NCBI GenBank assembly: GCA_007117515.1
Contig: SKGQ01000004.1
Location: forward strand, 1-45,986
Direction: 5' to 3'
From: Ectothiorhodospiraceae bacterium
Lineage (GTDB): Bacteria > Pseudomonadota > Gammaproteobacteria > Nitrococcales > Aquisalimonadaceae
DNA length: 45,986 nt
In this document: positions 26,289 through 29,252 of the stretch, one piece after another
Numbering within the stretch: the stretch's first letter is position 1
How the letters are laid out: the number at the start of each line of letters is the position of its first letter
Notes under the pieces: generated by a model
What the model saw: only the letters and a program-made list of their open reading frames with translations
Told to the model about the DNA's origin: nothing
The model's database searches: none
Position numbers and translations under genes: made by a program

Positions 26289-26684
26289 ATGAAGCGATTC
26301 AGTCTTGTCGCATTGCTGACGGCGTCCCTGGCGTTTGCCGGATCGGCGTTTGCAGAGAACGAGTCATACGACTATCCGACCATTGATCGTTATCAGTGGA
26401 TTGAGGAATGCCTGTATTACCAGGGGGAGCGGAACTTTGAAACGCTTTATGCATGTGCCTGCGCCATTGACGTGATTGCAGAACACATGCCCCATGACAA
26501 GTTCGTGCAGGCGGACACGGCCGAAAAAGCAGCCTCCGTGGCAGGTGAGTCCGGTGAATATTTGCGGGAACCGGCTCGGGGCATCCAGGAGCTGCGGCTT
26601 GCTTATGGTGAAGCGAAAAACCAGGCCGACAGGCGCTGCTTTGTGCGGCCCAATCGCCTGAAGAACATCTGGCCGGAATTCTGA
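26289..26684 (+). CDS. Small exported four-cysteine protein of the xox locus
   Basis: This 131-residue protein has a clear signal peptide (MKRFSLVALLTASLAFAGSAFA, 1-22). The mature part has four Cys, in WIEECLYYQ, LYACACAIDVIAEHM and DRRCFVR, which could form two disulfides in the periplasm. From memory, proteins with the same ECxxxx...YxCxCAIDxIA pattern occur beside PQQ methanol dehydrogenase genes, but they have no name and no assigned function. The ATG at 26289 begins the signal peptide and has GGAG upstream. It precedes xoxF by 750 bases, with a foldback element in between. Confidence 0.75.
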   Translation: MKRFSLVALLTASLAFAGSAFAENESYDYPTIDRYQWIEECLYYQGERNFETLYACACAIDVIAEHMPHDKFVQADTAEKAASVAGESGEYLREPARGIQELRLAYGEAKNQADRRCFVRPNRLKNIWPEF

Positions 26685-26794
26685 TTGCAAATCCCGCCCC
26701 GGGCTCGCCCTGAGCCCGGGGTAATTCGCTCGTGCATGGTCATTTCGCCAAGCTTGAATCTTACGTTGTACCCTTTTCTGCTGAACTCATTGCT

Positions 26795-27076
26795 CGTTAA
26801 GGAAACACTGATTTATTCCCGCGCCTGCGTTGGAGTCCGCATTTTTTCCGAGTCAAGGCGCGCTGCGCAGCGCCGCAGTCGTTCTGCGGTCAAGCAGCGC
26901 AACGCAGCAGTCGGGAAAAATGCGGCCCAACCCAAGGGGTCCGGCCGGTTTTGGCCTCTGGCGGCGTTGCGCCACCGGCCCGGTAGCTCGGGCTACCGAA
27001 CCGGCACCGGGCCTTGCCAGATGACCAAAACCGGTCTCGGGCGCAGACGCGGGAATAAATCAGTGTTTCCTTAACG
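26795..27076. mobile_element. 282-bp foldback (MITE-like) element with 35-bp inverted ends
   Basis: The ends 26795-26829 and 27042-27076 are inverted copies with essentially one mismatch. Inside are two further stems. One is 15 bp with one mismatch (26837-26851 with 26911-26925, both containing T/A runs). The other pairs CCGGTTTTGG at 26945-26954 with CCAAAACCGG at 27025-27034. A small hairpin, GGTAGC/GCTACC, lies inside that arm. The whole can fold as a branched cruciform. It encodes no protein and shows no obvious target duplication. Confidence 0.75.
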
Positions 27077-27165
27077 AAACACTCTCCCGGAGCCGTTCAT
27101 TCCGCCCGCTTAACGGCGGCGCAAAGCCGCGCAACGGTTTGTGACAGAAACGACGCACCTTTCTA

Positions 27166-27182
27166 ACGGTGATGAACACCGT
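27166..27182. promoter_or_regulatory. Small dyad before xoxF
   Basis: ACGGTG and CACCGT are perfect complements around ATGAA, about 250 bases before xoxF. It is a possible operator; its occurrence by chance is not excluded. Confidence 0.25.
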
Positions 27183-27434
27183 CTCCGAGGCTGTTCATCT
27201 TTTATGACCGGGGCGCTCAGGGGAGATGCCGCTCAAGACAAGGTCTTGCGTGACCCTGGCCCCCGGGACGTTGGGTTGGCCTGCATCTTGAATACAGTTA
27301 GCTGCGGTGGATTCCGATCGCCACCGCCCGAGCGCATTGTGCTTGGGTGAATCCTGATCGGATCTGTCTTGCGGTCCCGGCAACCCCCAAGAGCCGGACG
27401 CCGTCACACAAAACACTAGGAGGGGGAGAAGAAG

Positions 27435-29252
27435 ATGACTCCGACGAGACTTTCTCGTACGACCCTGGCCTTTATGGCTTCCGCGTCCATGGGCGCAATG
27501 ATGCTGTCCGGTGGCGCCATGGCGAACTCCGACGTCATGGAACGCATCGGCACGCACGTAAACCATCCGATCACGGGCGGTGACTACCAGCAGACGCGTT
27601 ACAGCGAAATGGACCAGGTGAACCGCGACAACGTGCACCGTCTGGTGCCGGCCTGGACCTTCTCCACCGGCGTTCTCCGTGGTCACGAAGGCGAGCCGCT
27701 GGTTGTCGACGGCATCATGTATGTTCATACGCCGTTCCCGAACAACGTCTACGCCATCGATCTGGATACCCGTGAAATTGTCTGGGCCTACGAGCCGAGC
27801 CAGGATTCCAACGTCATTGGCGTGATGTGCTGCGACACCGTTTATCGTGGCCTGGCTTACGGTAGCGGCAAGATCTTCCTGCAGCAGGCGGACACCACGC
27901 TGGTCGCTCTGGACGCCAAGTCCGGTGAAGAGCAGTGGTCCGTGAAGAACGGTGATCCGGCCATCGGTGAAACCAACACCAACGCCCCGCTGGTTGCTGG
28001 TGACAAGGTTGTTACCGGTATTTCCGGTGGCGAGTTCGGTGTCCGTGGTTTCGCGATCGCCTACAACATCGAAGATGGTTCGCTTGCCTGGAAGGGCTAT
28101 AGCACCGGTCCGGATGACGAAATGCTGGTCGACCCGGACAACACCACTGCCATGGGTGAGCCGATCGGCGCCAACACCGGCCTGGATTCCTGGGAAGGTG
28201 ATGAGTGGACCCGCGGTGGCGGCACCACCTGGGGCTGGTTCTCCTATGATCCGGACCTGAACCTGCTCTACTACGGTACCGGTAACCCGGGCACCTGGAA
28301 CCCGGAACAGCGTCCGGGCGACAACAAGTGGTCCATGACCATCATGGCCCGCGACCTGGACACTGGCGAAGCCAAGTGGCTGTACCAGAAGACCCCGTGG
28401 GACCAGTGGGACTACGACGGTGTTAACGAAAACATCCTCGCCGACATTGAAATCGACGGTGAAGAACGCAAGGTCATGGTCAACTTCGACCGTAACGGCT
28501 TTGCCTACACCCTCGACCGCGTGACCGGTGAGCTTCTCGTTGCCGAGAAGTACGATGACACCGTGAACTGGGCTACCCATGTGGACATGGAAACCGGTCG
28601 CCCGCAGGTTGTGGACGAGTACGCTCCCGGCGTCCAGGGTGCCGACGTAAACGTACAGGGCATCTGCCCGGCGGCGCTTGGCTACAAGGATCAGCAGCCG
28701 GCCTCGTTCAACAAGCAGAACGGTCTGTTCTACGTGCCGACCAACCACATCTGCATGGACTACGAGCCGTACGAAGTGTCCTATGTGGCCGGTCAGCCGT
28801 ACGTCGGTGCGACCCTCAGCATGTTCCCGACCCCCGACAGCTTTGGCGGCATGGGCAAGTTCATTGCCTGGGACGCTGCCAAGGGTGAAGTGGTCTGGGA
28901 AGCCGAGGAAGCCTTCGCTGTCTGGTCTGGTGCTCTGACCACCGCCGGCGGCCTGGCCTTCCACGGTACCCTTGAGGGTTACATCCGGGCCCGTGACGTT
29001 GATACCGGTGAAGAGCTGTGGAACTTCCGCACGCCGTCCGGCATCATCGGTAACGTGTTCACCTACGAGCATGACGACAAGCAGTACGTCGGCGTGCTGT
29101 CGGGCATCGGTGGCTGGGCCGGTATCGGCATGGCTGCTGGCCTCGAAGGTGATTCCGAAGGCCTTGGTGCTGTCGGTGCCTTCCGTGGTCTGTATGACCA
29201 CACCCGTCTGGGTGGCACTCTGACCGTGTTTGCTCTGCCTGACTTCGAGTAA
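27435..29252 (+). CDS. xoxF: Lanthanide-dependent methanol dehydrogenase XoxF
   Basis: Periplasmic PQQ enzyme that oxidises methanol to formaldehyde and passes electrons to a c-type cytochrome. The 605-residue protein has a signal peptide at 1-30 (ending GGAMA). The vicinal disulfide is Cys132-Cys133 (CCDTVYRG). Metal/PQQ ligands are Glu200 (GGEFG), Asn284 (GTGNPG) and Asp326. The second Asp of the WDYDG motif, Asp328, is the hallmark that separates lanthanide XoxF from calcium MxaF. Eight beta-propeller W-motifs are spread along the chain (for example [29 protein letters not shown]). A strong ribosome binding site precedes the ATG, and a strong terminator follows, before xoxG. Confidence 0.97.

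Follow-up and report, generated by a model that had tools for sequence, protein, structure and literature searches.

The 270-bp folded repeat lying ahead of xoxF in this Ectothiorhodospiraceae bacterium is probably a MITE, a non-autonomous transposon put at TTAA by a DDE transposase of the IS5 family, whose folded strand would aid its propagation. Terminal repeats, a target duplication, very many copies, absence in relatives and the existence of IS5 elements with similar ends all lead us to the MITE. Its interior fold appears, from comparisons across genomes, to be a widespread conserved module: a terminal stem, a hairpin arm, a tiny hairpin and an inverted hairpin arm, a layout that recurs with unrelated ends and stems. 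The window from which we worked (the whole stretch of DNA that was analysed) is 45,986 nucleotides long and belongs to an assembly of 210 contigs that is 97% complete (G000).

Comparison with other copies set the ends of the element proper (Table 1). It reads GGAAACACTGATTTATTC...GAATAAATCAGTGTTTCC, with an 18-bp terminal repeat, and the target duplication TTAA stands on either side of it. The preliminary description had placed a foldback at 26795-27076. The foldback is real, with 51-nt inverted arms (26794-26844 and 27027-27077) that are 86% complementary, but its limits were slightly off: the outer 6 nt (CGTTAA and TTAACG) are the TTAA duplication plus a flanking CG. In the DNA fold the outer stem runs for 29 consecutive pairs, one unpaired position and nine more pairs, and the fold energy of the 282 nt is -115.4 kcal/mol, where shuffled sequences average -57.7 with an SD of 3.9 (z = -14.7; 0 of 200 shuffles were as good). 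The two internal arms and small hairpin described at first reading are all present in this predicted fold, and a CCC...GGG piece similar to the tiny hairpin was found in most of the two-arm elements we compared. As for the absence of coding capacity, a 129-aa TTG ORF does cross the element mechanically (26685-27074, plus strand); that the element is nonetheless non-coding is what its many divergent copies suggest. Arms A and B are the two best matches in the window to R1, our covariance model of the motif hairpin, the arm-A E value being flattered because one R1 training sequence (L355) comes from the same genome.

Table 1. Coordinates, in the window, of the element upstream of xoxF and of its surroundings.
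Feature	Position	Strand	Basis or remark
Element (probable MITE), 270 bp	26801..27070		Ends by copy comparison; copies in G000-G003, G005, G006, G011
Left target-site duplication TTAA	26797..26800		TTAA both sides
Right target-site duplication TTAA	27071..27074		TTAA both sides
Left terminal inverted repeat GGAAACACTGATTTATTC	26801..26818	+	247 sites with <=3 mismatches in own assembly; control 1
Right terminal inverted repeat	27053..27070	-	Exact inverse of left repeat
Outer stem, left strand	26801..26833	+	Pairs with 27038-27070, DNA fold
Outer stem, right strand	27038..27070	+	DNA fold
Arm A	26837..26925	+	Stem 26837-26851 with 26911-26925, capped by motif hairpin; inverted repeat and fold
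Motif hairpin, forward copy (CAAGGC...AACGC, 52 nt)	26854..26905	+	Regular-expression match
Motif hairpin, forward copy, covariance model R1	26842..26917	+	67.3 bits, E 1.2e-18
Tiny hairpin CCC-AAG-GGG between arms	26930..26940	+	Fold
Arm B, bearing the inverted, more diverged motif copy	26941..27037	+	Fold
Motif hairpin, inverted copy	26952..27028	-	Covariance model R1, 17.2 bits, E 0.0032
xoxF upstream region, outside element; contains blocks conserved in G001 and G002	27126..27434	+	Alignment
xoxF-type PQQ methanol dehydrogenase gene	27435..29252	+	TIGR03075, 718 bits vs cut-off 480

The element has a great deal of company. Its own assembly holds 259 candidate copies, an uncertain count since the repeat itself fragments the assembly (contigs L008, L010, L019, L022-L027, L029 and L030 start or stop inside a copy); all 40 of those we scored matched. 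The 18-bp end, allowing up to three mismatches, occurs there at 131 + 116 sites, against 1 + 0 for a reversed control. In 800 kb sampled from Methylonatrum kenyense AMT 1 (G002) we counted 52 clusters, which make up about 0.7% of the sequence and include seven full-length copies; 36 of the 52 are intergenic by a crude ORF caller. We compared the flanks of 73 full-length copies from seven genomes: in 37 the 4 nt on the two sides are identical, mostly TTAA or CTAG. Other copies too have empty sites in relatives (L009, L017 and L021, for example). The preliminary description had supposed that the end sequences recur in other proteobacterial genomes, which the searches for copies and ends bear out. 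It had also raised the idea of a non-autonomous element moved in trans, and this gains support from the copies, the target duplication and the related ends in other proteobacteria.

Some copies sit in curious places or come in other sizes. Those in L229, L230 and L231 (G000) and L181 (G002) are nested in another dispersed hairpin repeat, of the GGAGAAG.TTTTTCTCCGG...CTGTTGG type, which M. kenyense also has without the element. In L253 (G001) a near-perfect palindrome (ggctgctcatcaaccgttaa and ttaacggttgatgagcagtc), perhaps a terminator-like hairpin, has the element (1105-1373) at its center. Longer variants that share the ends also exist in M. kenyense: L063:223-552 and L154:3675-4004, each of 330 bp, differ in the middle, and L108:2857-3262, of 406 bp, seems to contain three arms.

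Which transposase could have moved all these copies? YTAR is the target of the IS5 group and TA that of elements with IS630-like ends; for elements other than the IS5 type, the end and target classes we name are presumed ones. Both the ends and the target of our element fit those of IS5-family elements. Insertion sequences of 1202-1214 bp with YTAR flanks, whose similar ends depart from the 18-mer at 0 to 5 positions, are found at L033/L044/L055 (G004) and L032 (G011), both genomes of the same family, and at L119 (Thiobacillus sp. 65-29), and their transposases are of the IS5 family by NCBIfam. They share terminal repeats and flanks with the element, whereas they are 1.2 kb long and have a transposase gene. 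The likeness of L032, L033 and L119 to the element is confined to the ends; blastn of the window element against them gave no match at E 1e-5, and they have no match to the motif of its arms, except in a short element neighboring L032. No partner transposase came to light in the element's own, fragmented assembly, where searches for DDE_Tnp_1 and DUF772, and tblastn with an IS5-type transposase, all came back empty. The one such trace in G002 is a 47-aa remnant of an IS5-type transposase that contains a stop codon (L200, G002:C24:201810-201950), possibly left by a lost partner. In five short elements (L098, L091, L111, L076 and L149) similar ends, mostly with YTAR flanks, enclose interiors that are unrelated; the class of the ends and that of the interior therefore seem to combine freely. 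The ends, the target sites and the empty sites all speak strongly for insertion by an IS5-family transposase; we infer such an enzyme as the mover, its partner copy having been lost, being missing from the assembly or having gone unrecognized.

At the locus under study, this transposase would have inserted the element at TTAA between two genes. The upstream one (26289-26684, plus strand) encodes a small protein that looks secreted, can be aligned with sequence in the corresponding position of G001 and G002, and matches no entry of Pfam or NCBIfam at E 0.001. The downstream gene was rightly taken for xoxF: its product is a dehydrogenase of the PQQ methanol/ethanol family (TIGR03075), it contains WDYDG, in which DYD is presumably the signature of XoxF, and the gene is 84-96% identical in G001-G003. 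A fixed regulatory structure of xoxF, whether RNA or DNA, is suggested by the location of the element about 365 bp upstream of the start codon and by its very stable fold, but we give this reading next to no credence. The element is absent from the orthologous upstream regions of the three nearest relatives (G001, G002 and G003), many copies lie elsewhere, and no Rfam family reaches its gathering score in the window stretch around the element. In G002 the alignment runs right through the insertion site, at 71% identity over 512 columns, with flanks too diverged to align the empty target base by base. A lone element conserved at xoxF had been named at the outset as the sign of such a structure, and we found the reverse on both counts; by these comparisons an ancestral role in regulating xoxF is refuted, and we dropped it. 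The stretch conserved between species starts about 50 bp downstream of the element (around 27126), so the native xoxF leader looks intact. A species-specific effect of the element on xoxF expression is possible.

The MITE reading explains how the element came to be where it is, and the interior is a subject in itself. Between genera the element is 63-70% identical, and the lineage consensi take broadly the same folded shape (that of G003, from three copies, folds somewhat differently), with many stem pairs changed on both sides between lineages. An alignment of 13 diverse full-length elements has 73 predicted pairs, and 40 of these show double changes; RNAalifold over all 73 copies had given a poor consensus, and we used the lineage consensi and the 13-element alignment instead. 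Following a 55-bp core into more distant genomes, we came upon elements that keep the layout but have other stems, and in L258 and L263 other ends as well. Common to both arms, in inverted orientation, is a motif made up of CAAGGC, a 7-bp stem, GCAG, an inner hairpin, CAA, a stem and AACGC. As a pattern of about 52 nt it occurs in 44 of 369 genomes of the class (38 of 272 genera; its reversed form in none) and in 14 of 398 genomes of a phylum sample, eight of them outside the class, the element's own genome being included in these counts.

We went through 72 loci in all, among them L392, which has no strict motif match. In these we outlined 58 elements with an outer inverted repeat, and 14 motif instances were without one; none of 724 random positions in the same loci had such a repeat. 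Forty-five of the 58 are 255-285 bp long with the motif starting 49-57 bp from the end, and six of the other 13 are 140-180 bp. Within the 45, the first 30 bases have a median pairwise identity of 0.33 (2% of 990 pairs above 0.6) and the arm-A stem one of 0.39 (6% above 0.6). Since most of these loci were found by the letter pattern of the motif, conservation of the motif itself is built into the sample, which is not so for size, layout and complementarity.

A few further sightings belong here. The motif model matches arm B weakly in the element's own genus. A 272-bp, CTAG-flanked element with the same layout lies at L109:465-736 in a Methylotenera oryzisoli MAG (motif model E 7e-4 and 0.095), and an Anaerotignum match (L095, E 0.009) was dropped for want of the layout. 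An Rfam scan of 12 loci returned no above-threshold match resembling the element, the families over threshold being tRNA (L335) and TwoAYGGAY (L341); the latter, RF01731 at L341:1137-1252 on the minus strand, is close to a motif element in G320. A plasmid search gave no match for the window element, L259, L333 or L365 and two records for L361, one full-length at 74% in Comamonas odontotermitis and one partial in Cupriavidus basilensis; in NZ_CP083452.1, the one plasmid record whose annotation we inspected, the repeat class has no annotated feature. A phage search with L361 gave no match. Five stretches of viral contigs match the motif pattern, of which L358, L360 and L361 have the full layout; L359 and L362, with no outer repeat, were dropped.

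It was the mispairs in the motif that spoke to the nature of selection. Pairing holds in 96.2% of the cells of 40 motif hairpins; shuffling the partners lowers this to 71.8% and sliding the strands to 48.7% or less, and 12 of the 15 pairs have double changes. At the free stem positions, 2-6, of 53 distinct stems there are 23 G.T/T.G mispairs and 0 A.C/C.A (p = 2e-7, an optimistic value, since the motif stems of one genome are related; most loci were found by letter pattern). Two larger counts were set aside: an earlier one of 54 vs 2 (72 distinct stems from 92 strings) includes two positions wholly or partly fixed by the pattern, and one of 43 vs 0 includes position 7, whose 3' letter is pattern-fixed in most loci. 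So one-sided a count implies that the fold of one strand appears to be selected, and selection on double-stranded DNA or repair by template switching, both of which should leave the two kinds of mispair equally, fit it poorly. Strand-specific selection on the motif is supported by the data.

The count bears directly on a rival account of the element, an ordinary type II MITE with a functionless interior, its stems kept by template switching during replication (quasi-palindrome repair) and its motif shared by descent or recombination. Everything that argues for a MITE applies to this account as well, short elements with the same ends and unrelated interiors do exist, and strand bias is slight in the long arm stems (79 vs 54 in 62 arms) and absent from resident copies. 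We nevertheless judge it unlikely. Template switching should yield as many A.C as G.T mispairs, unlike the motif stems, and it is the loop letters, the size and the motif offset that are kept while stems and ends vary. In the resident copies (59 from the element's own genus), private stem changes stand at parity, 22 G.T to 23 A.C, the same when split by arm, and selection on resident copies as RNA was rejected on that ground. Across all cells of these copies G.T is commoner, 145 to 45, a figure we left unused because it arises from a few shared variants (41 vs 32 distinct variants). With private mutations in resident copies free of bias, selection probably acts on propagating copies.

Two inverted hairpins under selection on one strand bring REPINs to mind, in which selection acts on a folded single strand. 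A system of that kind would have inverted REP-type hairpins moved as single-stranded DNA by a Y1 (RAYT) transposase, the DDE-type ends being secondary, and Y1 transposases are indeed present in 24 of the 28 genomes we took with the motif and in 12 of the 20 taken without it (chosen by hand and only roughly matched by family). Our own assembly and M. kenyense, both rich in copies, have no Y1 match at E 1e-5, and the ends and target duplications are of the DDE type; we regard this reading as highly improbable, and to judge from those two genomes a Y1 transposase does not seem to be the general partner. As REP, BIME and REPIN sequences with RAYTs are presented in PMC3733652, the element shares with them inverted pairs of short hairpins and a high copy number; its motif differs in being about 52 nt with internal loops, set inside DDE-type ends with target duplications, in a genome with no Y1 transposase found.

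The closer relations are type II MITEs, defined in PMC10969869 by a similarity to insertion sequences that is confined to their ends, with Correia, Chunjie, QMITE and ERIC as examples. Like them, the element is below 500 bp, has exact terminal repeats and a target duplication, is present in many copies that are polymorphic for insertion, lacks a transposase gene and resembles insertion sequences at its ends only. It departs from them in that what stays constant from genus to genus is the interior fold and the size, with ends that differ, for which the cases described in the sections we draw on from that paper offer no parallel. Another class that conserves fold over sequence is that of attC sites, whose R boxes serve IntI recombination. 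Five sequence strings appear in no paper of the open-access literature searched, and concept searches of the same literature found no paper that apparently describes the interior fold, which is weak evidence of novelty.

What might the fold be for? The branched interior presents two inverted copies of the motif hairpin, so that either strand would bear one forward copy. We suppose that the element retains its fold because a single strand folded in this way, be it extruded or replicating single-stranded DNA or else RNA, helps it to propagate, probably by binding a protein; both that partner and the benefit are conjecture on our part. A bolder reading, to which we give an even chance, is that there exists in the Pseudomonadota a superfamily of MITEs defined by an interior fold of about 268 bp that holds two inverted copies of the ~52-nt hairpin, its members having unrelated ends and presumably different transposases to move them. 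The motif would then be a selfish piece of structure that passes from one transposon family to another and, as folded single-stranded DNA or RNA, raises the propagation of its carrier.

MITEs are usually classed by their ends, and the interior is treated as leftover; here it is the interior that is conserved and the ends that vary. In its covariation and its tolerance of wobble pairs on one strand, that interior resembles structured RNAs, and the covariance model R1 can be used to annotate this repeat class. Why some MITEs reach very high copy numbers may thereby become a testable matter: does the folded interior recruit a protein of the host or of the transposon?
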